Source: Comamonadaceae bacterium
Lineage (GTDB): Bacteria > Pseudomonadota > Gammaproteobacteria > Burkholderiales > Burkholderiaceae_C
Reading direction: 5' to 3'
DNA: 57,532 nucleotides
NCBI GenBank assembly: GCA_947446885.1
Contig: CANFHZ010000003.1
Span: 1 to 57,532, forward strand
This document shows, in pieces, positions 8,095 to 52,164 of this stretch; within the stretch, counting starts at the first letter, position 1; the number at the start of each line of letters is the position of its first letter. The notes below the pieces were generated by a model that saw nothing but the letters and a program-made list of their open reading frames with translations, was not told where the DNA came from and did not search any database. The position numbers were made by a program, and so were the translations under genes.

Positions 8095-8711
8095 ATCGGG
8101 CGCTGGCGAACCAGTACGTATTGCGCAAACTGGCCGTGGTCACCTTGGCCATGTTCGGTTTCGGCTACGCATTGGTTCCCATGTACCGGGCGATATGCGA
8201 GTACACCGGCATTAATGTGCTGGCGCTGGCAGAACAGGCTGTACCGGGGATGCGCGCGGCACCCACCAACACCCAGATCGATACCACCCGCCTGATCACC
8301 GTCGAGTTTGATGCCAACTCCCGCGGTCCGTGGGAGTTCCGTCCCGAGCAGCGGTCGGTGCAAATCCACCCTGGCGAAGTGGTCACGGTCTTGTATGAAT
8401 TCCAAAACACCCAGAACCGTCGAATGAGTGCGCAGGCGATCCCCAGCTACGCACCGCAACAGGCGGCCTCGCATTTCAACAAATTGGAGTGTTTTTGTTT
8501 CCAGCAGTACACATTGGACGCCGGGGAGAAAAAGTCCTGGCCTGTGGTTTTTGTGGTGGATTCCAAGCTGTCGCCTGACGTGAAGACCATTACCCTGTCG
8601 TACACGTTCTTTGAAGTTGGCGCAAAGACGCCGGCTGCGCCCATTGCTTCGCAGAACCATGCCGCTCCGGTCGCGCTGGACCTGCAACGCGTACGGAACC
8701 GGGCCACATGA
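8091..8711 (+). CDS. ctaG: Cytochrome c oxidase assembly protein CtaG/Cox11
   Basis: 206 residues. One N-terminal transmembrane helix (about 12-30, including FGFGYALVPMYRAICEYTG) is followed by a periplasmic immunoglobulin-like domain with the copper-binding motif LECFCFQQ. Cox11 delivers copper to the CuB site of subunit I. The sequence PMYRAICEYTGIN is diagnostic. It is ATGA-coupled to the preceding small gene and, by its own stop, to the following DUF2970 gene. Confidence 0.95.
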   Translation: MNRALANQYVLRKLAVVTLAMFGFGYALVPMYRAICEYTGINVLALAEQAVPGMRAAPTNTQIDTTRLITVEFDANSRGPWEFRPEQRSVQIHPGEVVTVLYEFQNTQNRRMSAQAIPSYAPQQAASHFNKLECFCFQQYTLDAGEKKSWPVVFVVDSKLSPDVKTITLSYTFFEVGAKTPAAPIASQNHAAPVALDLQRVRNRAT

Positions 8712-8911
8712 TGGCTGCAGTGGCATGGCGGCGTTTCGGCCGCAGCATCAGGGCGGTAGCCTGGTCTTTTTTGGGTATCCGCAGCAAGGCGGGTCTGGAT
8801 AGTGATCACGCGCAGGTCAAGCCCTTGGAGGTGCTGGCGGTGGGTCTGGTCGGCGTGTTTGTATTGATCGCGGTGCTGGTGGCGGTCGTGAGTTGGGCGG
8901 TTGCAAAGTAA
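8708..8911 (+). CDS. DUF2970 small membrane protein
   Basis: 67 residues with the segment RAVAWSFLGIRSKAG followed by one C-terminal membrane helix (about 42-63). This is the DUF2970 pattern, usually found between ctaG and coxC in this order of bacteria. The function is unknown; probably an oxidase assembly or stability factor by context. The start overlaps the ctaG stop (ATGA); a second ATG directly follows the first. Confidence 0.8.
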   Translation: MMAAVAWRRFGRSIRAVAWSFLGIRSKAGLDSDHAQVKPLEVLAVGLVGVFVLIAVLVAVVSWAVAK

Positions 8912-8960
8912 GGGTCGCGACTGCGGCACTTCTTGATTTTTGGCAAATACTGGAGTTGAT

Positions 8961-9842
8961 ATGAGTTCAAGTGCACACGGGGCAACGCCCTATTATTTTG
9001 TCCCGGGCCCGTCGCGTCACCCGGCCATGGCGGCTCTGGGTTTGTTCTTCGTTATTTTGGGTGCGTCCCAGTGGGTCAACGACGTGGCATGGGGACGGTA
9101 TTCGCTTTTTGCGGGTCTCGCACTGTTCGCCTGGGTCTTGGTTGGCTGGTTTGGTGATGCCATCAGTGAAAGCGAGGGGGGCCAGTACGGGCGGCGCATC
9201 GACATCTCGTTCCGCTGGAGCATGAGCTGGTTCATTTTCTCCGAGGTGATGTTTTTCGGTGCATTCTTTACCGCGCTGTGGTGGGGCCGTGCCCACTCAA
9301 TCCCGGAGGCTGGAAGCCTGGAAAACGCCTTGCTGTGGCCCGGTTTCAAATCGGTCTGGCCCAGCATGGCCGCCGGCGTGACGGGTTCTCCTGCAGACAT
9401 CATCGAACCTTTTACCACCATGGGTCCATTCTGGTTGCCCACCATCAACACCGCCTTGCTGCTGACTTCGGGCGTGACCCTGACGATTGCGCACCATGCC
9501 CTGATTGACGACCACCGTGCCCGTGCCATTAGCTTCATGTGGCTCACGGTGCTGCTGGGGGTGACATTCCTGTGCGTGCAAGGCTACGAGTACTACCACG
9601 CCTATACCGAATACAACCTTAAACTCACTTCCGGCATTTACGGGTCCACCTTTTTCATGCTGACTGGCTTCCACGGTTTCCACGTGTTTGTCGGCATGCT
9701 GATGCTGCTGTTCACGACCCTGCGTATGCAAAAAGGGCACTTCACTCCCGGCCGGCATTTCGGCTTTGAGGGTGCCGCCTGGTACTGGCACTTTGTAGAC
9801 GTGGTCTGGCTGGGTCTGTATATCCTGGTGTATTGGATATAA
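8961..9842 (+). CDS. coxC: Cytochrome c oxidase subunit III
   Basis: 293 residues with seven predicted membrane segments and the family signatures FSEVMFFGAFFTALWW, HGFHVFVGMLML and WYWHFVDVVWLGLYILVYWI. Subunit III stabilises the catalytic core and holds lipids near the oxygen path. The start is ATG 8961 with TGGAG ten bases upstream. A terminator hairpin follows 20 bases after the stop. Confidence 0.96.
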   Translation: MSSSAHGATPYYFVPGPSRHPAMAALGLFFVILGASQWVNDVAWGRYSLFAGLALFAWVLVGWFGDAISESEGGQYGRRIDISFRWSMSWFIFSEVMFFGAFFTALWWGRAHSIPEAGSLENALLWPGFKSVWPSMAAGVTGSPADIIEPFTTMGPFWLPTINTALLLTSGVTLTIAHHALIDDHRARAISFMWLTVLLGVTFLCVQGYEYYHAYTEYNLKLTSGIYGSTFFMLTGFHGFHVFVGMLMLLFTTLRMQKGHFTPGRHFGFEGAAWYWHFVDVVWLGLYILVYWI

Positions 9843-37503: not shown

Positions 37504-38010
37504 TTATTTCTTGACGGGCAGGCCGATCACGCTGCCCAGCCGGGCAGGGCGCGGCAGCGTCGCGTGCTGCGCCGCCAAGGGCTGCAAGTGCAACAGCACC
37601 TGCGGCGCAAAAGGCGCGCTGCGGGGGCCGCGCATGTCCATGTTCAAGAGCATTTGCTCGCCCAGCGCCGCTGCGCCATCCACCCCCGGCACGTACAGCG
37701 CGAGCGCCACATGCAGGCGTTTGGCATCGATGGCCACTACTTGCGCGCGCACTTCCAGTGCTGCGCCCAGTTTGACCTCGCGCAGGTAATGGATGTGGGC
37801 CTCCAGCGTGAACAGCGAATGCGATAGCGCCGCGCGTCCGGCGGCATCCAGCCCGATGCGGTCCATCAAGCCGTCCACGCCGTAGCTGAACAACAGGGAA
37901 TAAAAGGCGTCGCGCAAATGGCCGTTGTAGTCCACCCATTCGGGCAGCACCGCGCCCTGGTAGGTAAGCAGGGGCAGCGGTGGCGCTATCGCGCTGGTGG
38001 CCTCAGGCAT
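37504..38010 (-). CDS. Hotdog-fold acyl-CoA thioesterase (second paralogue; betainyl-CoA thioesterase candidate)
   Basis: 168 residues with [20 protein letters not shown] (catalytic Asp) and [19 protein letters not shown], matching the sister protein at 35810-36376 in order and spacing. The gene overlaps the carnitine dehydrogenase 3' end by eight bases, as expected for CdhB, the thioesterase that releases glycine betaine from betainyl-CoA. The assignment of this copy rather than the other to CdhB rests on adjacency only. Confidence 0.8.
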
Positions 38011-38968
38011 CCGGCGCGATTCCGTGTTTCAGCTTGGTCGACTTGATAGCGGCCTGCACAGCCATCAGGCAGTCGTCGCGGTAACGCTCCCAATCGGCAA
38101 TGCTGCGTCCGGCCAGTTGTTCCTCGCTGCCCTCGGCCACGGCGTCGAGCAGGGCGTCGGTGAGTTCGGGAGCTTCCAGCTTGGTCCAGGGTAATTTCAG
38201 CGCCGGGCCGAACTGCGCCATAAAGTGGCGCATGCCGGCGTCGCCACCGGCCAGGGTGTAGATCAAAAAGCTACCCATGAAAGACCAGCGCATGCCCGCG
38301 CCAAAGCGGATCGCGTCGTCAATCTCGCCGGTGGTCGCCACGCCATCGTTGACCAGGTGCAGCGACTCGCGCCACATGGCCTCCAACAGCCGGTCGGCAA
38401 TAAAACCGGGGACCTCTTTGCGCACATGCAGCGGGCGCATGCCCAAGCTGCGGTAGACCTGCATGGCGGCTTGCACCGCCTCAGGCGCGGTGTTCACGCC
38501 GCCCACCACTTCCACCAGCGGCAGCAAATACACCGGGTTGAAGGGATGGCCGACCACGCAGCGCTCGGGATGCCGGGCCTGGGCATAAAAGTCGCTGGGC
38601 AAGAGGCCCGAGGTGCTGGAGCCGATCAGCACATTCGGCCGCGCGGCTGCGGTGATTTGCGCATGCAGCGACAGCTTGAGGTCCTCGCGCTCAGGCGCGC
38701 TTTCCTGGATGAAGTCAGCATGCGCCACGCATTCTTCGACGGTGGCGACGAATCGCATACGGTCTTGCGAAGCGCCGGGTGCCAGGCCCTGCGCGGTCAG
38801 CGCGCCCCAGGCTTTGGCGGTGCGCGCACGCAGCGCGGCTTCGGCACCGGGGGCCGGGTCCCAGGCAATCACGTCCAGGCCGTGGGCCAGGGCGCGGGCC
38901 ACCCAGCCGCTGCCGATCACGCCGGTGCCCAGGGCCGCAAAGGTTTTGATGTCGGTGTTGAAGTTCAT
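38003..38968 (-). CDS. cdhA: L-carnitine 3-dehydrogenase (3-hydroxyacyl-CoA dehydrogenase family)
   Basis: 321 residues. The Rossmann motif [19 protein letters not shown] near the N-terminus, then [50 protein letters not shown] and [18 protein letters not shown] are the pattern of carnitine dehydrogenases, which oxidise L-carnitine to 3-dehydrocarnitine with NAD+. It is followed by a thioesterase gene and preceded by a BKACE gene, the same trio as the Pseudomonas cdh locus. The start ATG is 38968. Confidence 0.85.
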
Positions 38969-39000
38969 GGTGTCCTCGCTATTTCGTTGGGTACAGCGGA

Positions 39001-39888
39001 TCAGCCGCGCTTCTTGAGCCCCATTTTTTCGCGCCCCTGGGCTGGCGTCATGGGCGTGCCACCCAGGCGGGTGATGATTTCCACCACGCGCTCGGTCAGC
39101 GAGCCGTTGCTTGCCAACACGCCCTTGTCCAGCCACAGGTTGTCTTCCAAGCCTACGCGCACATTGCCACCCAGCAGCATGGCCTGCGCGGCCATGGGCA
39201 TTTGGGCACGGCCAATGCCGAAACCGGACCACACCACACCCGGCGGCAGGTTGTCGACCATGGCTTTCATGGTGGTGGTGTCAGCTGGTGCGCCCCAGGG
39301 AATGCCCAGGCAGAGCTGGAATAGCGGGTTGTCCAGCAAGCCTTCTTTCATCATTTGCTTGGCAAACCACAGGTGGCCGGTATCAAAAATTTCCAGCTCG
39401 GCTTTCACGCCCAGCTCGGTGATGCGCTTGGCCCCTGCGCGCAGCGCCACCGGGGTGGAGACGTAAATCGTGTTGCCGTCGCCAAAGTTCAGCGTGCCGC
39501 AGTCCAGGGTGCAGATTTCGGGCAGCAGTTGTTCCACATGGATCAGACGCGCCAGAGGACCGATCAGGTCGGTGTTGGGGCCGAACTGGGTGGGTGTTTC
39601 GCCGGGGCCGATTTCCAGGTCGCCGCCCATGCCCGCCGTCAGGTTGACGATGATGTCCACGCCGGAGTCGCGGATGCGGTCCATGACCTCGGCGTACAGG
39701 GCCGGGTCGCGGCTGAACTGGCCGGTTGCAGGGTTGCGCACATGGCAGTGGACGACGGTGGCGCCTGCTTTGGCCGCCTCCACCGCTGCGGCGGCGATTT
39801 GCGTGGGTGTGACAGGCACGTGCGGACTCTTGCCGACCGTGTCGCCCGCGCCGGTCAGCGCACAGGTAATGATGACGTTGGGGTTCAC
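39001..39888 (-). CDS. BKACE-family beta-keto acid cleavage enzyme (dehydrocarnitine cleavage, CdhC-like)
   Basis: 295 residues of the DUF849/BKACE family: [16 protein letters not shown], the metal-binding [45 protein letters not shown] and the C-terminal [10 protein letters not shown]. These zinc enzymes cleave a beta-keto acid with acetyl-CoA. For 3-dehydrocarnitine the products are betainyl-CoA and acetoacetate. Context with a carnitine dehydrogenase makes that the likely reaction. It begins at GTG 39888 with AAAGGAG five bases upstream and appears to be the first gene of the minus-strand block. Confidence 0.85.
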
Positions 39889-40195
39889 ACAATCTCCTTT
39901 GTTTTTGAGGGCGTCCGGGGCCTGCTCCGGGCGCGATGGCGCGGCGGCAAGTGTAGGGGCTGCCTGCCACTGTAGGAGTGCAGGGTGGGGCGGTCCAGTC
40001 TGCGGGCGACATGGGAGAAAGTCGGCGCGACCACGTCGCGGCCCGGCTGTCGCGCCCCGCCGCAGGCAGGTCGCTACCCGCACAGGCGCACGCACCGGGT
40101 CATGGCACCATACGGCGTATTGCCCTTGCGCTGCCCGGTCGGCGGACGGAGCGTCAGGCGCCTACCGGTCACCCTCTTGTTTCCCGGACATTTTC
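39889..40195. promoter_or_regulatory. Divergent intergenic region between BKACE and MFS genes
   Basis: 307 bases without a supported gene. It must hold the promoter of the minus-strand catabolic block and that of the MFS-HD-DMT genes. A small palindrome ATACG-G-CGTAT lies in the half nearer the MFS gene. No clear sigma-70 hexamers, and no regulator gene, are seen. Confidence 0.5.
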
Positions 40196-41464
40196 GTGAA
40201 CCCCTTGTTTTGGCCTTTGGCCTCTTTGCTCAGCGGTGTGGCCATGCTGGTGGTTGGCATTGCCTTGCTGACCGTGGCCATCAGCTCGCAAGCCAGCACC
40301 GCGCACTTCTCCGGCCTGGTCACCGGCATGGTGATGTCGGCCTACTTCGCCGGTTTTGTGTATGGCACCTACGCCTGTCCGCGCCTGATCAAGCGGGTGG
40401 GCTATATCCGCGCATTTGCCGTGCTGGCCTCCGTGGCATCGGCTTTGCCCGTGCTGCACGCCTTGTGGACCAACCCCTGGTTTTGGGGCGGCCTGCGCTT
40501 TACCACCGGGCTGTGCATTGTGGGTTTGTATATGGTGATTGAGAGCTGGCTCAATGTGGTGGCGGGCAGCGAGGACCGGGGCAAGGTCTTTGCGGCCTAT
40601 ATGGCGGTCAGCGGCGTGTCCATGGCGCTGGGACAGTGGCTGATTCTCGCGGGCGACCGCTTTGGCTTCGTGCCCTTTGCGTTTGCCTCGATATTGTTTT
40701 CTTTTGCGCTGGTGCCCACCACCATGACCACCATTGCCGAGCCGGTGCAAACCGACACGCCGGCATTGAGCATGCGCCGCCTGTTTGCGGTCTCGCCTAT
40801 CGGTGCGTTGGCCTCCATGGGATCGGGGCTGATCAATGGCACCTTCTTCAGCCTGGGTAACGTTTTCGGGCACGGCGTCGGCTTCAGCGACGGGCGCACC
40901 GCGACCTTCATGGCCATCACCATCCTGAGCGGTGCGGCTTTTCAATGGCCGATCGGCCACCTGTCGGACCGCTACGACCGGCGTTGGGTCTTGTTCTGGG
41001 TGTGCGTCGGCTCGGCGGCCCTGGCGGTCTTGGGCTTTTATTTGGCGCGGGAGTTTGAGAATCTTTTGCTGCTGCTGGGTGTGGGTTTTGGTGCTTTGGT
41101 ATTTGCGGTCTACGGCCTGAGCGTGGCGCATACCAATGACCTGATTGACCCTTCCGAAGTGCTGGAAACCACGGGCGGTCTTTTGCTGCTGTACGGCGTC
41201 GGGGCCACCATCGGCCCGACCCTTGCCGGAGGTCTGATGGACGTGCTGGGCCCTGAGAGCTTGATGCTGTACTTTGCGTTGATGCTGGGCTTGCTGGCCC
41301 TGGCGGTCTGGTTTTTTGCCACCCGCAAAGGCCGCATTTTCAGCAACCCGGGCCATACCAGCGACTATGTGCGCATGGAGGCCAGTTCGCTGGTGGTCTT
41401 GCAACTCGACCCGCGTGCCGCCAAGCGGCAAGCCACAATCGAGGCACAGGAAGTCCATCCCTGA
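40196..41464 (+). CDS. MFS transporter (YcaD-like)
   Basis: 422 residues with about 12 membrane helices and the segment GLCIVGLYMVIESWLNVVAGSEDRGKVFAAYM, typical of the YcaD/YfkF-like MFS group. The cytoplasmic loop DRYDRRW (GHLSDRYDRRWVL) is the MFS motif A. The substrate is unknown; divergence from the betaine genes makes a quaternary-ammonium substrate possible. The start is the GTG at 40196, since upstream codons are not membrane-like. It is followed 33 bases later by the HD-domain gene. Confidence 0.84.
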   Translation: MNPLFWPLASLLSGVAMLVVGIALLTVAISSQASTAHFSGLVTGMVMSAYFAGFVYGTYACPRLIKRVGYIRAFAVLASVASALPVLHALWTNPWFWGGLRFTTGLCIVGLYMVIESWLNVVAGSEDRGKVFAAYMAVSGVSMALGQWLILAGDRFGFVPFAFASILFSFALVPTTMTTIAEPVQTDTPALSMRRLFAVSPIGALASMGSGLINGTFFSLGNVFGHGVGFSDGRTATFMAITILSGAAFQWPIGHLSDRYDRRWVLFWVCVGSAALAVLGFYLAREFENLLLLLGVGFGALVFAVYGLSVAHTNDLIDPSEVLETTGGLLLLYGVGATIGPTLAGGLMDVLGPESLMLYFALMLGLLALAVWFFATRKGRIFSNPGHTSDYVRMEASSLVVLQLDPRAAKRQATIEAQEVHP

Positions 41465-41497
41465 ACCACTCAGCCCACCGATCCGCAGGAGCCCGCC

Positions 41498-42079
41498 ATG
41501 CAACACGTCGCCTTCACCGCCATGCAAGACGGCACCCAGGCCGAGTACGCGTTCCTGCATGCGCTGGAGGCCGATTACATGCGCGCGCTGCCGCAGCGCA
41601 TTCTGGCCTCCTTGGAGCGCACGGCGGACACGCTGCCCGGTTACCAGATCAACCGCCTGACCCACGCATTGCAAAGTGCGGCGCGCGCCGAGGCCGACGG
41701 CGCGGATGTAGACATGGTGGTCGGTGCCCTGGTGCACGACATGGGGGACGAGCTGGCACCGGCCAACCACGCCGCTTTTGCCGCCGCGCTGCTGCGGCCC
41801 TATGTGCGTGCCGAAGTGACCTGGGTGGTCGAAAAGCACGCGCTGTTTCAGATGCAGTACTACGCGCACCACCTCGGGCAGGAGCGTGATGGCCGGCTGC
41901 GCTACCGCGAGCACCCCTGGTTTGCCAGCTGCCAGCATTTTTGCCAGGCCTACGACCAGAATTCTTTCGACCCTGATTACCCCACGCCGCCCTTGGCGCA
42001 CTTTGCGCCTCTGGTGCATGCGGTGTTCAGTCGCACGCCGTACGACCCGGCGGTCTTGCAAGAGCCTGTGCGCAATTGA
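41498..42079 (+). CDS. HD-domain protein with PhnZ/TmpB-like diiron ligand set
   Basis: 193 residues. The motif order H56, H80-D81, H91, H114 and D153 reproduces the six metal ligands of the HD-domain mixed-valent diiron oxygenases (PhnZ, TmpB, inositol oxygenase). The INRLTHALQSAARAE segment and the 24-residue H-to-HD spacing agree with PhnZ. Routine annotation would call it a phosphohydrolase. TmpB makes glycine betaine from a phosphonate, a striking parallel with the neighbouring betaine pathway, but the true substrate is unknown. The gene overlaps the next one by four bases (TTGA). Confidence 0.75.
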   Translation: MQHVAFTAMQDGTQAEYAFLHALEADYMRALPQRILASLERTADTLPGYQINRLTHALQSAARAEADGADVDMVVGALVHDMGDELAPANHAAFAAALLRPYVRAEVTWVVEKHALFQMQYYAHHLGQERDGRLRYREHPWFASCQHFCQAYDQNSFDPDYPTPPLAHFAPLVHAVFSRTPYDPAVLQEPVRN

Positions 42080-42972
42080 GCGGCTTGAGCGCCTCGCTGC
42101 GCGCCATTCTGGCGATGCTGGCTGCGGTCGGCTGCTTCTCCCTGATGGACGCAGCCCTCAAGGGGCTTACCGGTGCCTACCCGCCCTTGCAGGTTGCCGC
42201 GCTGCGCGGGCTGGCGGCTTTTCCCTTGGTCTGCGCGTATATCGCCTGGCAGGTCCCGTTGCGCACGCTGGTGCAGGTGCGCTGGCCCATGCACCTGCTG
42301 CGCGGCGCGCTCAATGTGGGCATGTTGTGCAGCTTTTCATTGGGCATAGGCCACCTGGCCATTGCCGAGGCCTACACCCTGTTTTTCATTTCGCCGCTGG
42401 TCGTGACCGCGCTGGCGGTTCCGCTGCTCAAAGAGCCTGCGCGCCGTGCGCACTGGGTTGCGATCGCCATCGGCTTGTGCGGCGTGCTGATCGCCATGCG
42501 TCCCGGCGGCGACAGCATGGTGTCCTGGGGCGCGCTGGCGATTCTGGTCTCGTCCCTGTGCTACAGCGGCACGGTCTTGACCGCGCGCATCATCACCCGC
42601 ACCGAGGGCACGGCCAGCGTGGTTTTCTGGACCACGTTTTTCATGGCCGCCGGGGCCGGTGCGTTGGCGCTGCCCGATTGGCAACCGGTTCAGCCGGTGC
42701 ACTGGCCCATGATCGCGGCGATGGGCCTGACCGGCTTTGGCGGCACGGTGGCGATCACCTATGCGTTTAAACATGGCAAGACCGCCAGCGTCGCGCCCTT
42801 TGAATACAGCGCCCTGGCCTGGGCAATTGCCATCGATTACTTGATATGGAACACCACGCCGGATGCCTATACGCTGGTGGGCGGTTGCATCGTCATATTG
42901 AGCGGCTTGTATTTGATCCGCGATGAACGTGGTCAGGCTGCTGAAGCCGCCAAGTTGGCGCAGCACCCTTAA
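42076..42972 (+). CDS. EamA/DMT-family transporter
   Basis: 298 residues with ten membrane helices in two EamA repeats (first: MLAAVGCFSLMDAALKGL to VLLKEPARR-like PLLKEPARRAHW; second: ILVSSLCYSGTVLTAR to GGCIVILSGLYLIRDE). Such proteins export metabolites. It begins with a TTG whose TTGA overlaps the TGA of the HD-domain gene, so a coupled start is likely. It ends next to a scar that marks the left edge of the accessory island. Confidence 0.85.
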   Translation: MSGLSASLRAILAMLAAVGCFSLMDAALKGLTGAYPPLQVAALRGLAAFPLVCAYIAWQVPLRTLVQVRWPMHLLRGALNVGMLCSFSLGIGHLAIAEAYTLFFISPLVVTALAVPLLKEPARRAHWVAIAIGLCGVLIAMRPGGDSMVSWGALAILVSSLCYSGTVLTARIITRTEGTASVVFWTTFFMAAGAGALALPDWQPVQPVHWPMIAAMGLTGFGGTVAITYAFKHGKTASVAPFEYSALAWAIAIDYLIWNTTPDAYTLVGGCIVILSGLYLIRDERGQAAEAAKLAQHP

Positions 42973-42979
42973 GCGGTTT

Positions 42980-43007
42980 ATCTGGTCGCGCCAGCGGTTG
43001 TCGGCGA
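42980..43007. repeat. Left copy of 28-bp imperfect direct repeat (gntR fragment)
   Basis: 28 bases matching 46994-47021 at 27 of 28 positions, in the same orientation. The right copy lies inside the gntR gene; read on the minus strand both give NRWRDQ. This copy is joined to the NIPSNAP remnant, so it looks like a recombination scar. Confidence 0.8.
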
Positions 43008-43176
43008 AAGAGATCAGCCCCTAGGCCTCGTAGTTGCTGCCCTCGTGCGGCACACAGTAGCCCAGCAAATGCCCGCCCAGGCGGGGGGTGATGTGCGCCC
43101 AGTTGTCAGCATAGGCCGTGAACTGGTCTTTCTGGAGAGGGGCGATTTAGTAGCGGATGAAGCAGGTGATGGTCAT
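43008..43176 (-). pseudogene. NIPSNAP-family protein remnant
   Basis: Reading from ATG 43176 on the minus strand gives [29 protein letters not shown], then [27 protein letters not shown]. This is clearly a NIPSNAP protein. In-frame TAA (43147-43149) and TAG (43021-43023, replacing an expected Trp) interrupt it, and the C-terminal half is missing where a gntR fragment is joined. An AGGAA ribosome-binding site survives. It is a decayed gene at the island border. Confidence 0.85.
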
Positions 43177-43425
43177 GGCGGTTCCTCTGGCTGGTGATGA
43201 GAGGAGTCTCAAGGACGAATGCGGGGAATGCTTTGGTGGGTGACGAAATTGTGAATGTGTCAGGTGAAAGACTAAGCAATAGGATGATGAGTGGCTTTGG
43301 TCTGAAGAGGAGTTGGCGGAGCTGTTCGTGCGGCGAGGAGGTCGGACGCGCGAATGTCGACCTGTAGACTCGGAAGTGTTGTTTTAGAAAGCCCAACCAC
43401 AGCATTGCTTCACGAGGTGAGATCG
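43177..43425. other. Intergenic border region upstream of the ParB-like gene
   Basis: 249 bases without a supported gene, more AT-rich and different in texture from the flanks. It should contain the promoter of the ParB-like/endonuclease-like pair. No transposase, integrase or clean promoter pair is visible. Confidence 0.4.
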
Positions 43426-44565
43426 ATGGCAAAAACCAAGGATATGGAAACGATTGTTCGCGCCGCGGCCGCGAGGAGCGTGCTGCTGCCGGTCACGAAC
43501 CTCCACTTCGACCGGAACAATCCACGCTTCCCACCGAAGGTGGCACAAGGTCCTGTAGCGGATCTGATGCAACGGTTCGTTAGGGACGAACGCTTGTTGG
43601 AGATCATCGAATCGGTCGGCAATCACGGTTTCTTCCCAGGTGAACCGCTGTTGGTTGTTCCTGACGGTGACGACGACTATCGGGTCGTTGAGGGTAATCG
43701 CCGTCTCGCGGCGCTTAAGCTTCTGGTGAGGGAGCTGGAGCCACCGAGCGGCCGCACCTCAATAGAAGAGGCCGTCGAGGCTGCTGAATTCCGTCCCAAG
43801 AAAGTGCCTTGTCTTGTATTCGACGACGAGAACGAGATATTGCGCTACCTCGGCTTTCGTCACATCACTGGCATCAAGGCCTGGAGCGCGCTGCAGAAGG
43901 CACGATACGCCGAGCGGATGTACCAAAAGTACAAGACCTTGCCTGAAGACGAGGGGCTTCGCTTGCTTGCTCGCGAGACGGGCACCCGGCGCGACACCGT
44001 CGGACAGATGCTCACGGCACTCAAGCTGTACGACCGCGCAGAGGCGAAAAACTTCTTCGGGCTGTCGATCGTGCCTGAGCAAATTGAGTTTTCTGTTCTC
44101 GGGACCGCTCTTAGCTACTCGGCTCTCATTGATTTTCTAGGGCTGGAGTCGCGCAGCGACATCATGCAAAAGGGGCTTGAGGAAGGCTCACTCAAGGACC
44201 TGTTCGACTGGCTCTTTGTCGTCGAGGGACGGTCTAAGCCCATCGTCACTGAGTCGCGGAACCTCCGAAAGCTAGCAGCAGTCGTGTCGTCGGAAACGGC
44301 GATTAAGGAACTGCGAAAGTCTGGCAATCTGGATCAATCCTACGAGCTGAGCAGCGGACCGGAAGAGGCTCTCGCAGACAGCCTGCGGACCGCGCTACGG
44401 CGACTCGAAACGGCTCAGGCGCTCGTTCCCAAGGTGCCAAAGATCAGTGAGGAGCATATGGAGCTTGCGGAGGGCTTGGTAAAAGCCGCTGCTGCAGTGC
44501 ACGACGTGGTGTTTGGTGCCCACCGACGGCAGAAGCGCTCGACAATTAAGCCGTCGCGGGGCTGA
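43426..44565 (+). CDS. ParB/Srx-fold N-terminal domain protein of an R-M-like island
   Basis: 379 residues. The N-terminal third is a ParB/sulfiredoxin fold: VTNLHFDRNNPRFP, then GNHGFFPGEPLLVVP and the nucleotide-binding-type motif VVEGNRRLAALK (EGNRR at 89-93). A central helix-turn-helix-like stretch LLARETGTRRDTVGQML follows, as in ParB. The remainder is helical with no known motif. ParB/Srx domains occur in DNA-sensing nucleases and NTP-dependent switches. It is not a chromosomal ParB: no parA or parS is nearby. It is followed three bases later by a nuclease-like gene and faces a DNA methyltransferase gene. Confidence 0.75.
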   Translation: MAKTKDMETIVRAAAARSVLLPVTNLHFDRNNPRFPPKVAQGPVADLMQRFVRDERLLEIIESVGNHGFFPGEPLLVVPDGDDDYRVVEGNRRLAALKLLVRELEPPSGRTSIEEAVEAAEFRPKKVPCLVFDDENEILRYLGFRHITGIKAWSALQKARYAERMYQKYKTLPEDEGLRLLARETGTRRDTVGQMLTALKLYDRAEAKNFFGLSIVPEQIEFSVLGTALSYSALIDFLGLESRSDIMQKGLEEGSLKDLFDWLFVVEGRSKPIVTESRNLRKLAAVVSSETAIKELRKSGNLDQSYELSSGPEEALADSLRTALRRLETAQALVPKVPKISEEHMELAEGLVKAAAAVHDVVFGAHRRQKRSTIKPSRG

Positions 44566-44568
44566 CAA

Positions 44569-45648
44569 ATGGCTGGACCAGCAAAGAAGCCGAAGAAGGC
44601 GGTTACGCCAATTCTTGACGCGAAGATGAGCCGTCCCAACGGGAGCGACCTCTATATCTGGTGTGACTACATTGAACTGCGCTGTCTGGTTGACAAAGAC
44701 AGACGACTGTCGCGCGGTCGCATGCAGGAACTGCTAGAAGACACCGCACAGATGTACGGCGAGCTGACTGATGCCGATGTTGTCAACCCGGCGGACGTTA
44801 CCCCGCAGCTCGACGGCAACTCTGATGATCCGGACGCTCTCGCCGGCGTGCCGCCTGGCGGTGTTCAGATTGGGACACGCAACGAGATGCGAGTGGTCGG
44901 CTGGTTCAATAACCTGGCCTTTCGCGCCAAGACTTTCGGCGACGCGTACCCGTTCAAGTTGTCAGCTGACTGCCAAGAACTTGAGGCACTGCAAGTGGAC
45001 ACGCCTTTGCGTGTGCTCTATGTACAGATGCTCATGTCGGCCTCTCTGCGGCTAGTGCCAAAAACGAGACACGATGAGCTGACCGAGTCTTTCGAGGAAA
45101 CCTCTCACGAGATTTTCAAGCAGCTCATGCCAAAGGGCTGGGAGGTACATCGCTTTGGAGCAAAGGGCGCGAGCCGATATGAAGGCCTGCTTTTTGATAA
45201 GTTGAAGGCCCTGGTAAAGGACCTACGTGGAAAGCTGATGCTTGAGGCCAAACACTTCAAGCCCAACGATCGTGGCGACGGCGGCCTGGACCTTGTAGCA
45301 TGGCATCCGATGGCCGGGGACGAGCGCGATGGTCTACCAATCGCACTTGCACAATGTGGCTGTACATCTGACAGCGATGCATGGAGCAAGAAATCCCTTG
45401 AAGCAGCCCCAGCAAAGTTGAGAGGTCACTTACACCTGTTGACCTCTTGGTCCACTTACTACTTCATGCCCCATGACCTCACGGAGGCATCCGGTACGAA
45501 AATCGACTGGCAACTGCGCAAAGAGTTGACCGAGTCGATCGTGATAGACCGCTCCCGCCTGATCCGCCTGGCAAAGCTCTATGGTTCGGTTGATCGGTGC
45601 GTGACGGCGCAGGCCACCGTTACTGAAGCTGTCGCGTTGAATTACTAA
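44569..45648 (+). CDS. Putative PD-(D/E)XK-type endonuclease-like protein
   Basis: 359 residues, no signal peptide. The C-terminal half contains RYEGLLFDKL (Glu205), then RGDGGLDLVAW (Asp237, Asp241) and, 20 residues on, LAQCGC (Gln262). This GDGGLD...QC pattern resembles restriction-endonuclease-like PD-(D/E)XK folds of the Q-variant type, as in some Mrr-like enzymes. The N-terminal half has no motif I recognise. Tight coupling to the ParB-like gene and a convergent cytosine methyltransferase favour a restriction role. The fold call is an inference. Confidence 0.6.
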   Translation: MAGPAKKPKKAVTPILDAKMSRPNGSDLYIWCDYIELRCLVDKDRRLSRGRMQELLEDTAQMYGELTDADVVNPADVTPQLDGNSDDPDALAGVPPGGVQIGTRNEMRVVGWFNNLAFRAKTFGDAYPFKLSADCQELEALQVDTPLRVLYVQMLMSASLRLVPKTRHDELTESFEETSHEIFKQLMPKGWEVHRFGAKGASRYEGLLFDKLKALVKDLRGKLMLEAKHFKPNDRGDGGLDLVAWHPMAGDERDGLPIALAQCGCTSDSDAWSKKSLEAAPAKLRGHLHLLTSWSTYYFMPHDLTEASGTKIDWQLRKELTESIVIDRSRLIRLAKLYGSVDRCVTAQATVTEAVALNY

Positions 45649-45653
45649 AGCTC

Positions 45654-46601
45654 CTACCAGATCGACTGCGGCAAAGCCTTGGCCACAGCGGCAAACAGTG
45701 GTGGGGGCACCGCGTTTCCCACGATCTTGTAGCGCATATCCAAGCTGCCGTTCTCCGTGTCTGGAAACCGGAAGTCGGAGTCAAACCCCTGTAGTCGCGC
45801 TGCCTCGCGGTACGTGAACCGCCGAGCTGGTGCGTCATTCTCAAACTCCCACACGTTGTGACGCAACTTACGTAACTGCGGGCTGATCGGGTGTAGCGGC
45901 ATGTGTCTGGGGTTGGCTACGATGGTCTTGGACAACTCGCTCCAATCCCGGCGGCGATCCCGTGACAGGTAGTACCAGTGAAAGTCTCGCCGGTAATACT
46001 CATTCTCTGAAGGCCAGTGACGCATGTATCGCAGCGCATCCTTAATTGTCTGGTATGGCTTGCTTCTGCCCTCTCCGTGAGTAGCCTCGGGGAATTGGTA
46101 GTCTGCTCCGAGATCGCTCCGCGTGCCAACTATGAGAATGCGCTTACGCTCCTGTGCAACGCCAAAGTCTGCCGCGTTCAACAAAGCGCTCTTTACATCG
46201 TAGCCAATCTCGGAGAAAACCTTGATTTGGTCGAGCAGTAGGTGGCGGTAGTTTGTCCGCACCATGCCCGACACGTTCTCTACGATGAAGGCTTTTGGTT
46301 TCATCTGCGCTAGCGCTCGCGCAAACTCTAGGTACAAGGTGTTTATGCGACGATTCGGATCGCGCACCCCGCCCTGGCTAAATCCCTGACACGGGTAGCA
46401 GCCGACCAGCAGGTCAGCGCTGGGGAAAATCTTGATCTTCTGAACGTCGCCGAGCCGGTAGTCGGTTTCAGCATGATTAGCCTCATACACATCCTTTGCG
46501 TATGCCAGCTTGTCGTTCGCCATCAAGACGGTGAAACCCGCTTGTGCGATACCAAAATCCGACCCACCACAGCCCGAAAAGAGCGAGACAGCAGTCTTCA
46601 T
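45654..46601 (-). CDS. DNA (cytosine-5-)-methyltransferase
   Basis: 315 residues with all major C5-methylase motifs: I FSGCGGSDFG (residues 8-17), IV PCQGFSQGG with catalytic Cys71, VI ENV (108-110), VIII QERKR (150-154), a variable target-recognition stretch of about 80 residues, IX RRFTYREAARLQGF and X YKIVGNAVPPPL. It would protect host DNA in an R-M system with the two genes facing it; the stop codons are six bases apart. The recognition sequence cannot be read. No strong ribosome-binding site precedes ATG 46601. Confidence 0.93.
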   Translation of the reverse strand: MKTAVSLFSGCGGSDFGIAQAGFTVLMANDKLAYAKDVYEANHAETDYRLGDVQKIKIFPSADLLVGCYPCQGFSQGGVRDPNRRINTLYLEFARALAQMKPKAFIVENVSGMVRTNYRHLLLDQIKVFSEIGYDVKSALLNAADFGVAQERKRILIVGTRSDLGADYQFPEATHGEGRSKPYQTIKDALRYMRHWPSENEYYRRDFHWYYLSRDRRRDWSELSKTIVANPRHMPLHPISPQLRKLRHNVWEFENDAPARRFTYREAARLQGFDSDFRFPDTENGSLDMRYKIVGNAVPPPLFAAVAKALPQSIW

Positions 46602-46628
46602 ATTTTTTGCTTACTCATACTAAGTGGA

Positions 46629-46658
46629 AGTGTATCCGCTGCCGACAGTCTGGGACAA
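46629..46658 (-). promoter_or_regulatory. Candidate promoter of the cytosine methyltransferase gene
   Basis: On the minus strand TTGTCC (46658-46653) and TACACT (46634-46629) are separated by 18 bases and lie just upstream of the methyltransferase start. Modest matches to sigma-70 hexamers. Confidence 0.45.
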
Positions 46659-46809
46659 AAGGCAAAGCCTATATGACTCCCAGCGCTTGCGTTACTTCTT
46701 TTCACCGAACATAGGTGATTCAATCGACACTGCAAATTCGTATGCAGAAGCATTCCCTGGGAGGCGTGCCGGGCCGTTCGTGCAGTCCTAATGTGTGCGT
46801 CGTGTAGTC

Positions 46810-47499
46810 CTACTCCGCCGCCTCCAACCCATTAGCAAAATGCTCCCGCATGCGCTCCTGCGTGCGCCCCGCATCCCGCGCCAGCAGCGCATCCATGATG
46901 GCCTGATGCTCCTCCAGTGACTCGGCGATGCGGCCGGTCTTGAGCAGGGAGTTGTGGCGGTTGAGTTTCATGACCTTGCGCAGGTCGGCCACCATCTGGT
47001 CGCGCCAGCGGTTGTTGGCGATGGCCAGCAGGCGCATGTGAAACTGTTCGTTCAGGGTGAAGAACTGGTCGGTATTCGGCTTCTGGGCCTTGCCCGCTTT
47101 CACGGGCTTCGCGGCGGCTTCCAGTTCCTTGTGCAGCTTTTGCAGCTCGGCCAGTTCCGCGTCGGTGGCTTTGGTGGCGACCACGCCCGCCGCGTCACTC
47201 TCCAGCAGGCTGAGCAGGTGGTACACATCGGCCAGGTCGGTCTTGGACACCTCGGTCACATAAGCGCCACGGCGCACCTTCATAGTCACCAGGCCTTCGG
47301 CGGCCAATACTTTCAGCGCCTCGCGCAGCGGGGTGCGGCTGATGCCGTATTCCTCGGCGATTCTTAATTCGTCAATCCAGTTGCCAGGTTCAAGTTCGCG
47401 CTTGAAAATGCGCTGCCGCAGCAGCTCCGCCACTTCTTCGTAAAGTGGCCTTGGGGCTAGCGATTTGCTGGCTAGGGCGGAAGAGGAGGCGGCTGGCAT
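46810..47499 (-). CDS. GntR-family (FadR-like) transcriptional regulator
   Basis: 229 residues. A winged helix-turn-helix (LYEEVAELLRQRIFKRELEPG, DELRIAEEYGISRTPLREALKVLAAEGLV) is followed by an FCD-type ligand-binding helical domain with the metal/ligand His residues (NEQFHMRLLAIANN, EEHQAIMDALLARD). The divergent methylmalonyl-CoA mutase gene and the 16-bp palindrome between them suggest it controls propionyl-CoA metabolism. The start is ATG 47499; an in-frame GTG at 47505 adds two residues. Part of this gene (46994-47021) is duplicated at 42980-43007. Confidence 0.92.
   Translation of the reverse strand: MPAASSSALASKSLAPRPLYEEVAELLRQRIFKRELEPGNWIDELRIAEEYGISRTPLREALKVLAAEGLVTMKVRRGAYVTEVSKTDLADVYHLLSLLESDAAGVVATKATDAELAELQKLHKELEAAAKPVKAGKAQKPNTDQFFTLNEQFHMRLLAIANNRWRDQMVADLRKVMKLNRHNSLLKTGRIAESLEEHQAIMDALLARDAGRTQERMREHFANGLEAAE
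46994..47021. repeat. Right copy of 28-bp imperfect direct repeat, inside gntR
   Basis: Matches 42980-43007 at 27 of 28 bases in the same orientation. The two copies bracket the ParB-like/nuclease/methyltransferase island. This copy is intact coding sequence for the NNRWRDQM segment of the regulator. Confidence 0.8.
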
Positions 47500-47533
47500 G
47501 GGCACAAAGTGTAAGTTAAAACACAGATTCTGA

Positions 47534-47549
47534 ATTCATAATTATGAAT
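47534..47549. promoter_or_regulatory. Palindromic operator between gntR and the mutase gene
   Basis: ATTCATAATTATGAAT is a perfect 16-base palindrome in the divergent intergenic region, in an AT-rich patch within GC-rich DNA. The size and symmetry fit a GntR/FCD dimer, so it is the likely binding site of the adjacent regulator. Confidence 0.65.
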
Positions 47550-47610
47550 AATGTAAACTCTCAACAGCCCTCCAGGCCGCCCCGGATTCGACCCGGCGGC
47601 CCCAACTGTG

Positions 47611-49800
47611 ATGACCGCCATGACTGACAAAAACCCCGAATTCAAGACCGCCACGCTGCAAGACTGGGCCAAAGCAGCCGCCAAGTCGGCCCCCGACGGC
47701 AATGTCGACGCATTGAACTGGGTCACACCCGACGGCATCGTCGTCAAACCCCTGTACACCGCAGCGGACACTGCCAACTTGCCCTACGCCAACACGCTGC
47801 CCGGCTTCGCGCCCTATGTGCGCGGTCCGCAGGCGACCATGTATGCGGTGCGTCCCTGGACGATTCGCCAGTACGCCGGTTTCTCGACCGCCGAGGAATC
47901 CAACGCCTTCTACCGCAAGGCTTTGGCGGCGGGCGGCCAGGGCGTCTCGGTGGCATTTGACCTGGCGACCCACCGTGGCTACGACTCGGACCACCCGCGC
48001 GTAACGGGCGATGTGGGCAAGGCCGGCGTGGCGATTGATTCGGTCGAGGACATGAAAATTCTGTTTGACCAAATCCCCCTAGAAAAGGTGAGTGTCTCCA
48101 TGACCATGAACGGCGCGGTGCTGCCGGTGCTGGCCGGTTACGTGGTGGCCGCCGAAGAGCAGGGCGTGCGCCAAGACCAGCTATCGGGAACGATTCAGAA
48201 CGACATTCTGAAAGAGTTCATGGTGCGCAACACCTATATCTATCCGCCCGCGCCCAGCATGCGCATCATTGGCGACATCATTGGCTACACGGCCAAGAAC
48301 ATGCCCAAGTTCAACTCCATCTCCATCTCGGGCTACCACATGCAAGAGGCCGGGGCCAACCAGGCGCTCGAACTCGCGTTCACGCTCGCCGACGGCAAGG
48401 AATACGTCAAAACCGCGATTGCCACCGGCCTGGACGTGGACGAGTTTGCCGGGCGCCTGAGCTTCTTCTGGGCCATCGGCATGAACTTCTATCTGGAAGT
48501 GGCCAAGATGCGCGCCGCGCGCCTGCTGTGGTGCCGCATCATGAAGGGCTTTGACGCCAAGTCGCCCAAGAGCCTGATGCTGCGCACCCACTGCCAGACC
48601 AGCGGCTGGAGCCTGACCGAGCAAGACCCGTACAACAACGTGGTGCGCACCACCATCGAGGCCATGGCCGCCGTGTTTGGTGGCACCCAAAGCCTACACA
48701 CCAACAGCTTTGACGAGGCGATTGCCTTGCCCACCGAGTTCAGCTCGCGCATTGCACGCAACACCCAGCTCATCATCCAGGAAGAAACCCATATCACCAG
48801 CGTGATCGACCCCTGGGCGGGTAGCTACATGATGGAAAAACTTACGCAAGAGATGGCCGATGCCGCCTGGAAAATCATCGAAGAAGTCGACGCCATGGGC
48901 GGCATGGTCAAGGCCGTGGACAGCGGCTGGGCCAAGCTCAAGATTGAGGCCGCCGCCGCCGAAAAGCAGGCCCGCATTGACAGTGGCAAAGACGTGATCG
49001 TGGGCGTCAACAAATACAAGCTCACAAGCGAGGACGCCATTGAGGCGCGCGACATTGACAACGTGGCCGTGCGCGAGGGCCAGATTGCCCGCTTGAAAAC
49101 CATACGCGCCAGCCGCGACAGCGCCGCCGTCAAAGCCGCACTCGACGCGCTGACCTACGCCGCTGGCCACAACGAAGGCAATTTGCTGGACTTGTCGATC
49201 AAGGCCATGCGCTTGCGTGCCACGGTGGGTGAGGTGAGCGATGCGCTGGAAGCGGCCTTCGACCGCCACCGCGCCGACACGCACAAGGTCTCGGGCGTGT
49301 ATGCCGCCGCGTATGACACCGACACCACCAACGGGGACACCATGGAGTACTGGAACGCACTCAAAGTCGACATCGCCGCCTTTGCCGAGGCCCAGGGCCG
49401 ACGCCCCCGCGTGATGATTTCCAAGCTCGGCCAGGACGGCCACGACCGGGGTGCCAAGGTGGTGGCCACCGCTTTTGCCGACCTGGGTTTTGATGTGGAT
49501 ATGGGGCCGCTGTTCCAGACACCGGAGGAATGCGCGCGCCAGGCCATCGAGAACGATGTGCACGCAGTCGGCGTATCCACCCTTGCGGCGGGTCACAAAA
49601 CGCTGGTGCCTGCCATCATTGCCGAGCTCAAAAAGCAGGGCGCCGACGACATCATCGTCTTCGTGGGCGGGGTGATTCCGCGCCAGGACTACGACTTTTT
49701 GTATGCCGCAGGCGTCAAAGGCATTTACGGCCCGGGCACGCCGATTCCGGTCAGTGCCAAAGACGTGCTGGCGCAGATCAACAAGGCACTGGCGGCCTGA
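47611..49800 (+). CDS. scpA: Methylmalonyl-CoA mutase
   Basis: About 729 residues: a substrate-binding TIM barrel ([64 protein letters not shown]) and a C-terminal cobalamin-binding domain with [22 protein letters not shown], which holds the B12-ligating His. It converts (R)-methylmalonyl-CoA to succinyl-CoA. It is a single-chain enzyme, as in E. coli Sbm. The start is uncertain among ATG 47611, ATG 47620 and GTG 47608; none has a clear ribosome-binding site. The next genes are a toxin-antitoxin pair, then meaB. Confidence 0.95.
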
Positions 49801-49813
49801 AACCCCGTTCGTT

Positions 49814-49829
49814 ATACTGTAATACCGTA
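49814..49829 (+). promoter_or_regulatory. Tandem ATACNGTA repeats (operator of the RHH antitoxin)
   Basis: Two adjoining eight-base repeats ATACTGTA and ATACCGTA lie just upstream of the antitoxin gene and overlap a TATACT -10-like box (49813-49818). Ribbon-helix-helix antitoxins bind such tandem sites, so autoregulation is likely. Confidence 0.55.
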
Positions 49830-49847
49830 TTTCAACTGGAGTCCACC

Positions 49848-50162
49848 ATGGCTGTTTCCGTTCGCATGGACCCTTTGCTGGAAAAGCAGCTGGAGCAGGC
49901 TGCCAAGCGCCAAGGCGTGACCAAATCCCAGTTCATCATCGACGCGGTCGAGCGTGCGCTGGGGCGCAAGAACCCGTATGAATTGATGCTGGCCTTGAAG
50001 GCGGAAGAAGAACAAAAGGCCTACGGGCCCCTGGCCAATCCGGCCGACGCCGCCGTAGCCAAGGCCTTTGAGGGCTACGAGCAGCCTTACGACACCGAGC
50101 GATCCCGCGCGCAATTGCTGGCCAAGTTGCAGGAAAAACATGGCCTTCGCAGCGATCGTTGA
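49848..50162 (+). CDS. Ribbon-helix-helix antitoxin
   Basis: 104 residues starting MAVSVRMDPLLEKQLEQAAKRQGVT, a CopG/RHH DNA-binding domain (first beta strand SVRMD), followed by a charged C-terminal half that would wrap the toxin. It is the cognate antitoxin of the PIN-domain toxin whose gene overlaps its 3' end by 23 bases. TGGAG lies seven bases before ATG 49848. The pair sits between the mutase and meaB genes and has its own operator-like repeat. Confidence 0.82.
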   Translation: MAVSVRMDPLLEKQLEQAAKRQGVTKSQFIIDAVERALGRKNPYELMLALKAEEEQKAYGPLANPADAAVAKAFEGYEQPYDTERSRAQLLAKLQEKHGLRSDR

Positions 50163-50562
50163 CGCCAGCGCCATGGTGGCGCTGTTTGGCAGAGACCAAG
50201 CCGAGAATGCGCGCTATAGCCAGTTGTTCGCACAGGCCGCGCAAGAGCAATGGTCGCTTACCTCGACCTGGCCCTGCGTGACCGAAGCCAGCCATTTGCT
50301 GGGATTGCCGCAGCGCTACGCGTTTTTGCGTTGGGTGGCGGCGGACGCGATTTCCATTTTTCCGTTCGACCAGGACACGCTCGAAGGCATGGCCGAGCTG
50401 ATGCGCCGCTACACCGAGTCGCCGCGCACCGAGATGGATCTGGCCGATGCCTCCCTGGTGTTTCTGGCGTCTGATACGGGCGTGACCCGCATCATGACGC
50501 GCGACGTGCGCGACTTTTCCCGCTACCGCCTCGCTGACGGTCGGGCGTTTGAAATCCTTTAA
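50140..50562 (+). CDS. PIN-domain toxin (VapC-like)
   Basis: 140 residues: the PIN-domain acidic residues appear as [11 protein letters not shown] at the N-terminus, TEASHLL in the middle, [12 protein letters not shown] and [10 protein letters not shown] at the C-terminus. VapC-type proteins are RNases that cut tRNA or rRNA when freed from the antitoxin. AGGAA precedes ATG 50140. The stop TAA shares one base with the ATG of meaB, so toxin and MeaB translation are linked. Confidence 0.82.
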
Positions 50563-51572
50563 TGGCCGCCGCCAACACCTCTTTGCTGACTGCGCTGCGC
50601 GGTGTGGAACCGATGGCGCAGCGCCGTGCCATGGCCAAAGCCATCACCCTGCTGGAATCCACCCGCGCCGACCACCGCGCGCAGGCCGACGCTTTGCTTA
50701 CCGCGCTGCTTCCGTTTACCGGTGGTTCATTCCGTCTGGGCATCAGTGGCGTGCCGGGCGTGGGGAAAAGCACCTTTATTGAGACCTTGGGGCTGTACCT
50801 GATCGCCCAGGGCCACCGCGTGGCGGTGCTGGCGGTGGACCCGTCGAGCAGCGTCTCAGGTGGCTCCATCCTGGGCGACAAAACCCGTATGGAGCGCCTG
50901 AGCGTGGCGCCGCAAGCCTATATCCGCCCCAGCCCGGCCAGTGGCACGCTGGGCGGCGTAGCCGAAAAAACCCGTGAGGCCATGCTGGTGGTCGAGGCCG
51001 CCGGGTTTGATGTGGTGATCGTGGAAACCGTGGGCGTGGGCCAGTCGGAAACCGCCGTGGCGCAGATGACCGATATGTTCGTGTTGCTGCAGCTGCCCAA
51101 TGCTGGCGATGACTTGCAAGCCATCAAAAAGGGCGTGATGGAACTGGCCGATCTGGTGGTGATCAACAAAGCCGATCTCGATCCGGACGCAGCCACCCGT
51201 GCCCAGGCCCAAATCGGCAGTGCCTTGCGCCTGCTGGGCTTGCACGGCAACCCATCCCATATGCACCACGCGGATAGCCAGTGGCATCCCCGGGTGATCC
51301 AGATCAGCGCGCTGCTGGGGCAGGGTGTGGACGGATTTTGGACGGCTGTTCAGGAATTCAAGTCACTGCAAACGGCGAATGGCCGCTTTGCCAGCCGCCG
51401 CCAGGGCCAGGCCCTGGCCTGGATGTGGGAGCGGATTGACGCAGGCCTCAAGCAGCGCTTCAAGTCCCAGGCCGCAGTCGCTGCTTTACTGCCCCGGCTC
51501 AGTGACGAGGTGCGCGCGGGGCAGCTGCCCGCGTCTAGCGCAGCCCGCATGCTGCTGGAGGCGGGGCGCTGA
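50562..51572 (+). CDS. meaB: Methylmalonyl-CoA mutase-associated GTPase MeaB
   Basis: 336 residues of the ArgK/MeaB G3E-type GTPase family: Walker [10 protein letters not shown] (63-71), [32 protein letters not shown] (switch/Walker B) and VINKAD (base specificity). MeaB protects and reloads the B12-dependent mutase. Normally its gene directly follows the mutase gene; here a toxin-antitoxin pair lies between them. The start codon is joined to the toxin stop as TAATG. Confidence 0.94.
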
Positions 51573-51577
51573 TGTTT

Positions 51578-51895
51578 TCAGATGCCGCTGATCAGCGTGT
51601 CGAGTGCGGCCACGATGGTGTGGCTTTGGGCGTCCAGATCCAACACGGAGCGCCCCAGCGCGTGGCTGTCAATCGCGAACAACTGCTGCATCAGGACCAC
51701 GTGTTCCACGCCGTCTATCCAGATGCAGGGGTTCAAGCGCTCCACCACGGCGCTGGCAAGGCGTCGGCGTGCAATCACCGGTGCCACCACGCGCGTGCCC
51801 ATGGCCGACAGCAGTCGGCTCTGGATGTCCAGCACGAATGGAATGTCTGCGGCCAGCGCGTCGTCGAGCAGCACGTGGATATGGTTTTGGCTCAT
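51578..51895 (-). CDS. ccdB: CcdB-family toxin
   Basis: 105 residues with the CcdB fold signature: IPFVLDIQSRLLSAMGTRVVAPV, RLNPCIWIDGVEHVVLMQQLFAID and a terminal LISGI. CcdB of plasmid F poisons DNA gyrase and needs a C-terminal Trp-Gly-Ile; here the Trp is Ser, so gyrase poisoning is not certain. The start overlaps the antitoxin stop (ATGA). It converges with meaB with a gap of five bases. Confidence 0.85.
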   Translation of the reverse strand: MSQNHIHVLLDDALAADIPFVLDIQSRLLSAMGTRVVAPVIARRRLASAVVERLNPCIWIDGVEHVVLMQQLFAIDSHALGRSVLDLDAQSHTIVAALDTLISGI

Positions 51896-52164
51896 CGAAT
51901 CTCAGGCTTGCTCAGGCCCTTCCACAAGCGCTGGCGGACCCCATCAAACGGCAGCCCGTTTTCCTCCACATGCCGGTTGTACGCGTCAATCGCCTCCTTG
52001 TTCTCTTCCAGCCATTGCGCCTCGCGCAGGCGTTTGACCTGGCTGGCCAGAGCCACTTCGAGCACCTGCGAGACGTTGACTTTGAGCTCCTTGGCCTGGC
52101 GCAGCAAGTCGCTGTTCACGCTGAGGTTGACCGGTTTTTTTGCGGCTGTGGATTCGTAGGCCAT
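51892..52164 (-). CDS. ccdA: CcdA-family antitoxin
   Basis: 90 residues: RHH-type N-terminus (KKPVNLSVNSDLLRQAKELKVNVSQVLE) and C-terminal toxin-binding part (RHVEENGLPFDG) as in CcdA. It neutralises CcdB and represses the operon. AAAGGAA lies before ATG 52164. Divergent from pccB with only 71 bases between the start codons, which contain paired palindromic octamers. Confidence 0.87.
   Translation of the reverse strand: MAYESTAAKKPVNLSVNSDLLRQAKELKVNVSQVLEVALASQVKRLREAQWLEENKEAIDAYNRHVEENGLPFDGVRQRLWKGLSKPEIR

Follow-up and report, generated by a model that had tools for sequence, protein, structure and literature searches.

The named system closest to the locus reported here is PD-λ-5, which carries another effector domain. 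PD-λ-5 was validated against phages (Vassallo et al. 2022, PMC9519451), and the main text of that paper makes no mention of ParB. From PADLOC and Pfam matches, we assign its A protein as a ParB/sulfiredoxin (Srx) protein and its B protein as a D12 methylase. ParB/Srx domains in defense are also treated in PMC12839542, PMC10952713 and PMC10853773, and pairs of a ParB_n protein and a nuclease occur as type IV GmrSD enzymes (PMC12373910). Here we describe a trio of genes from a Comamonadaceae bacterium (assembly GCA_947446885.1), located at 43426..46601 of a 57,532-nucleotide stretch of contig CANFHZ010000003.1 (hereafter, the window). The trio encodes a ParB/Srx protein (open reading frame 1, ORF1), a protein with a predicted PD-(D/E)XK nuclease fold (ORF2) and a C5-cytosine methyltransferase. 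It is recurrent, often prophage-borne and restriction-modification (R-M)-like, and we consider it probable that it constitutes an R-M module in which two proteins divide the restriction part between them and the methylase protects the host, with GGCC the likely site. We recognized no paper in the open-access literature as describing the trio, which the supplementary tables of Rousset 2022 may list.

The three proteins of the trio

ORF1 (43426..44565, plus strand, 379 aa) and ORF2 (44569..45648, plus strand, 359 aa) are separated by 3 bases, and ORF2 is convergent with the methyltransferase gene (45654..46601, minus strand, 315 aa), with 5 bases between the latter and the ORF2 stop. The ORF1 frame is already open from 43354, and the ATG at 43426 is favored by many close 379-aa homologs. 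A preliminary description, made from the sequence alone, had recorded two tightly linked genes converging on a complete C5-methyltransferase gene, and had proposed a ParB/Srx fold with an EGNRR motif and helix-turn-helix (HTH) for ORF1 and a nuclease-like GDGGLD...QC core for ORF2. These proposals hold up in the analyses that follow.

ORF1 shows weak similarity to Pfam ParB_N (E 0.0069) and to NCBIfam parB_part (1.3e-6), both matches falling below the cut-off. A fold search backs its identity as a ParB protein, and its model consists of a KorB/Noc/ParB-type Srx domain at the N terminus, followed by HTH-type helices and a helical C-terminal part. The EGNRR motif corresponds to residues 89 to 93 and the ParB-type HTH lies at ∼174 to 207. 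At least 1003 homologs were found at E ≤ 1e-3, and EGNRR is kept in all 24 ParB proteins compared. The Glu of the ParB GERR motif is catalytic; relative to two ParB proteins with GERR, ORF1 has GNRR, with an Asn replacing this Glu. On our reading, ORF1 would read DNA for the predicted restriction part and probably sense a nucleotide.

ORF2 matches no family in Pfam, NCBIfam or PADLOC. It does match phrog_3984 (E 4.6e-54), a PHROG of unknown function, and has 309 homologs at E ≤ 1e-3. Its model is confident (pLDDT, the predicted local distance difference test score, of 89.6) and, as the preliminary description had anticipated, resembles restriction endonucleases: the best PDB match, albeit a modest one, is MspJI (Foldseek E 8.1e-3, probability 0.99), the next is AspBHI, and restriction or nicking endonucleases make up the first 21 of the 50 VIA rows listed for the model. 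Of MspJI, only the catalytic C-terminal portion (residues 267 to 440) is covered by the match. In a profile alignment, D241 and Q262 of ORF2, which lie in the GDGGLD...QC core (residues 236 to 263), correspond to D334 and Q355 of MspJI. D237, D241, Q262 and K275 are conserved, and the customary active-site lysine appears to be displaced to K275; the ORF2 of one relative (L058) carries this lysine in its customary position and has no K275. No nuclease came up when the PDB was searched with the A3 profile. ORF2 is, by prediction, a nuclease-fold subunit with conserved active-site residues, as expected of the restriction component of an R-M system. Within the R-M reading as a whole, and only as probable as that reading, ORF2 would be a PD-(D/E)XK nuclease subunit with a putative active site of D241, Q262 and the displaced K275.

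The methyltransferase belongs to PF00145 (224.6 bits). M.HaeIII (1dct) aligns to its residues 4 to 311 (E 3.9e-51), a span that includes the target-recognition region, and the residues spelled out in FHWYYLSR-RR--W---S-TI----RHMPLHP-SP do not vary among 11 trio methylases. Across 66 comparisons among 12 HaeIII-type systems, the median identity was 71.0% for the methylase, 41.6% for ParB and 35.7% for ORF2, and the methylase was the most conserved of the three proteins in every comparison. This difference would be accounted for if the HaeIII-type systems had one methylation site in common, probably GGCC, and a restriction pair that evolves fast. Avoidance of GGCC proved uninformative as an indicator: the observed/expected ratio was 0.99 for the window and 0.70 for the WΦ piece (14 sites), and four others gave 0.70, 1.02, 0.86 and 0.82.

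Recurrence, methylase exchange and setting

With ORF2 as the query, tblastn, profile and pattern searches yielded relatives in phages, plasmids, IMG/VR and genomes. The preliminary description had suggested looking for the three genes together in other genomes and in defense islands; they do co-occur elsewhere, also in a published defense hotspot. ParB and ORF2 genes on the plus strand with a convergent methylase gene were found in the loci L002, L007, L009, L012 to L016 and L018. Well-known temperate phages carry the trio as well, and the identical layout is present in phage WΦ (gp98, gp96 and Mth), P2 record OU784549, phage 12474II and Pseudomonas phage D14A. Of 5426 Escherichia coli genomes, 103 contain 80% or more of the WΦ trio, and 103 records also reach ≥99% identity. 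A further 37 E. coli genomes match the WΦ trio less; the seven of these that were listed all match the methylase part, and the two that were inspected each have a ParB–hypothetical–methylase trio in a P2-like prophage, between the portal and replication genes. Rousset et al. (PMC9122126) reported this interval of P2-like prophages as a defense hotspot, and the trio is often cargo of it. In genome samples the ORF2 family is sparse, with 2 of 399 genomes of the order, 4 of 398 of the phylum and 4 of 385 of the class of G694, figures that include the genome of the window or of the center itself. A viral scan with the ORF2 of L039 and a phage search with that of L052 found nothing. On a Microvirga plasmid (L051, 5001 to 6818), ORF2 is split over two frames and a D12 methylase match persists (33.8 bits); no ParB-like frame was noticed in the frame list, no search having been aimed at one. 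The restriction half of this locus looks decayed and the methylase kept.

We compared 24 nonduplicate ParB–ORF2 pairs, 23 found through ORF2 and one (L025), by a biased route, through its methylase match. A methylase gene adjoins 20 of the 24 pairs (that of L041 being truncated), as expected of an R-M system, and lies one gene away in a further pair (L017). Both pairs on phage record MT835579 have a C5 methylase farther off on the same record; there, at 2908 to 7747 of L023, two different ParB–ORF2 pairs face each other. For the Persicobacter pair, no member of the three methylase families was found on its replicon. The methylases beside the pairs are of different classes: 13 are HaeIII-like C5, two are other C5, four are D12 N6-adenine and two are N6_N4 enzymes. 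The D12 gene is convergent with the pair in L038, L039 and L052, and upstream on the same strand in L058, while the N6_N4 gene (PF01555) lies on the same strand in L053 and L060. A different C5 methylase is beside the pair on the same strand in L059, and the different C5 methylase of L017 is separated from its pair by a gene that matches a PADLOC type II enzyme (64.2 bits).

On a tree of ParB plus ORF2, which has 21 inner branches, 8 of them weak, methylase class requires at least five changes. Grouping the HaeIII-like rows together was rejected by the approximately unbiased (AU) test (p 1.9e-9), which rests partly on L041, whose methylase is truncated and whose branch is long. Class is also clustered on the tree, with four changes for the HaeIII-like class versus a shuffled mean of 8.2. 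Methylase exchange is therefore occasional, but real. It is this switching of methylase class beside a conserved pair that leads us to judge an R-M role convincing. In L041 itself (8324 to 8995), the HaeIII-like methylase lacks its N-terminal part and abuts another gene, and the pair is apparently intact. The HTH letters differ between most C5 rows and the D12 and N6_N4 rows, but the HTH as sole reader of specificity does not give a clean division, as the D12-like HTH of L041 goes together with a HaeIII-like methylase.

In the window, the GC content is 0.54 to 0.59 over 43000 to 46999 versus 0.61 to 0.67 over 38000 to 42999 (500-base windows), and among 101 related genomes ORF2 is present only in the window's own. 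When the DNA of nine relatives, taken around the flanking mutase gene, was compared with 38000 to 52000 of the window, a synteny break bordered the trio: in eight relatives, similarity starts at 46810 to 46889, with none leftward, and the DNA of the ninth stops at 47303, the edge of its contig. The trio may have been acquired as a unit, although the genes to its left are not syntenic in those relatives either. Just left of the trio, at 42960 to 43200 on the minus strand, is a small unrelated reading-frame remnant with an in-frame stop, which may derive from a gene disrupted where the insertion took place. No attachment site-like repeats were found at the trio edges, no recognized phage gene was found among the four neighbors scanned, and a plasmid DNA search with the window stretch gave no match.

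A proposed split restriction part and alternative readings

The computed evidence comprises the layout and recurrence of the trio, the modeled folds, the conservation of the residues proposed for the active site, the likeness of the methylase to M.HaeIII and the exchange of one methylase class for another. In the mechanism that we favor, ORF1, with its ParB/Srx domain and HTH, would read the DNA site and probably sense a nucleotide; ORF1 and ORF2 would act as a complex, in which ORF2, the PD-(D/E)XK subunit, would cut DNA. The C5 methylase would mark self DNA, most likely at GGCC, and the pair would attack unmodified incoming DNA only, an arrangement predicted to protect the host and to act against phages. 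The preliminary description had proposed such a division of labor, with the pair as restriction component and the methylase as protector, and the co-occurrence of the genes, the nuclease-like model and the methylase exchange support it as a prediction. Neither result that it had named as contrary, absence of the trio from other genomes or of a nuclease fold from the modeled second protein, was obtained.

A tentative extension of this mechanism, which we hold to be possible and well short of likely, is that the nucleotide-gated clamp of ParB has become the subunit with which a restriction enzyme searches for its target, with ParB/Srx a general chassis for exchangeable effectors and methylases. 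ORF1 would load at unmethylated sites, switch state with nucleotide at the EGNRR pocket, slide, and deliver or activate the PD-(D/E)XK subunit. The effector would be swapped, PD-(D/E)XK here and another domain in PD-λ-5, alongside the four kinds of methylase seen.

The rival reading that survives best, although we regard it as unlikely, is an R-M-linked abortive system, in which host methylation would hold the pair off and the pair, once a phage interferes with the methylase, would kill the cell by cutting its chromosome instead of attacking the phage directly. The finders of PD-λ-5 call it a compacted prophage version of an R-M plus abortive infection (RM+Abi) system (PMC9519451), and the far greater conservation of the methylase than of the pair would fit such a design. 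However, comparison of ORF2 with the PD-λ-5_A effector half detected no similarity, and ORF2 resembles restriction nucleases.

Less probable still is a modification-dependent, type IV-like nuclease, with the pair sensing foreign base modifications and the methylase serving an independent role. MspJI, the best structural match of ORF2, is a modification-dependent enzyme, and AspBHI is titled as one; DUF262/ParB_n proteins count among the type IV restriction enzymes (PMC12373910). Nevertheless, it is the catalytic C-terminal part of MspJI that ORF2 matches, and an unrelated neighbor would not explain a methylase that adjoins most pairs and changes class.

The ParB fold and HTH of ORF1 could also serve a plasmid-like prophage in partition or copy control, with the other genes as passengers, and a putative partition system, which may or may not involve the trio genes, is reported in about one-quarter of E. 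coli P2-like phages (PMC9122126). But the second gene looks like a nuclease and not a ParA ATPase, the window trio lacks a recognized phage neighbor among those scanned, and the methylase is retained; we therefore disfavor partition and find it very improbable. Orphan methylases are common, but a chance placement of one beside an unrelated gene pair, which deserves hardly any credence, is ruled out by the identical geometry of the recurring trio across distant lineages and by the other methylase classes that take its place.

Our favored reading, a split R-M module, would give a concrete predicted function and mechanism to prophage genes annotated as hypothetical or ParB-like, including those of the classic phage WΦ, and would connect PD-λ-5 with a broader group of restriction modules that are built on ParB/Srx and can exchange their methylase. 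The trio also lets one ask if a nucleotide switch of the ParB type is able to drive restriction of DNA, and the site predicted from its C5 version, GGCC, is a simple one that is open to checking by HaeIII digest.

Comparison with known systems

ORF1 shares the arrangement of Srx-type domain and HTH with ParB, Noc and KorB and differs in having GNRR in place of the GERR of two ParB proteins, a nuclease-like operon partner and no ParA in the trio. The best PADLOC model of the window methylase is DruM2 of Druantia type II (335.7 bits). However, neither ORF1, ORF2 nor the four scanned neighbors match DruE, DruF or DruG, which rules out filing the window trio under Druantia II, as the methylase alone matches. 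In L059 (8536 to 12963), a DruE2-like protein (1187.6 bits) is encoded upstream of a ParB–ORF2–C5 methylase set, none of whose three genes matches DruF or DruG among the PADLOC matches listed; this is possibly a hybrid Druantia-like locus. The PADLOC candidate PDC-M38 was likewise rejected. ORF1 residues 54 to 330 match positions 58 to 329 of PDC-M38A (73.4 bits), a longer stretch than with PD-Lambda-5_A, and ParB proteins of other pairs match PDC-M38A too, but this covers only part of a 715-position profile and ORF2 has no PADLOC match.

Among restriction enzymes, GmrSD/DUF262 proteins resemble the trio in coupling a ParB/Srx-type (ParB_n) domain to a nuclease, sometimes as two genes, and differ in having HNH/His-Me nucleases and DGQQR in place of PD-(D/E)XK and EGNRR; to our knowledge, they have no cognate methylase. 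ORF2 resembles the catalytic domain of MspJI and AspBHI, with its active-site D...Q, but in the matches listed only the C-terminal, catalytic part of MspJI aligns and nothing of its 5mC-reading domain, the ORF2 lysine is displaced and a methylase is encoded beside ORF2. The window methylase is M.HaeIII-like over its full length, as in GGCC type II R-M systems (HaeIII and BspRI), and one phage record names its trio methylase "Modification methylase BspRI." In contrast to HaeIII-type systems, the restriction part here is a ParB/Srx and PD-(D/E)XK pair, and neither ORF1 nor ORF2 matches a restriction-enzyme family in Pfam or NCBIfam.

The preliminary description did not recognize the trio as a named system. 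This stands insofar as the trio belongs to none of those compared, and is to be amended in that it is related to the named and validated PD-λ-5. The first ∼165 residues of ORF1 match PADLOC PD-Lambda-5_A models (up to 78.9 bits), and a methylase adjoins in both systems. The best of these models is matched at only 7 to 162 of its 466 positions, ORF2 matches no PD-λ-5 model, and the window methylase is C5 whereas PD-Lambda-5_B is D12. Marinobacter phage AS1 carries the two-gene form of PD-λ-5; an ORF2 profile showed no hhalign similarity to its A protein or to the effector part from Vibrio phage ValB1MD-2, these being single-sequence templates with which a very remote tie is possible. Filing the trio under PD-λ-5 was ruled out on these grounds, the match being confined to the N-terminal part of ORF1. 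In ValB1MD-2 (L064, 3132 to 5571), PD-λ-5_A is split into ParB and effector genes (252 and 265 aa), followed by a D12 methylase, giving the same three-gene ParB–effector–methylase layout as in the present trio. The methylase of the L052 pair is itself of the PD-Lambda-5_B family (315.7 bits). The trio is thus a relative of PD-λ-5 and not a member of it.
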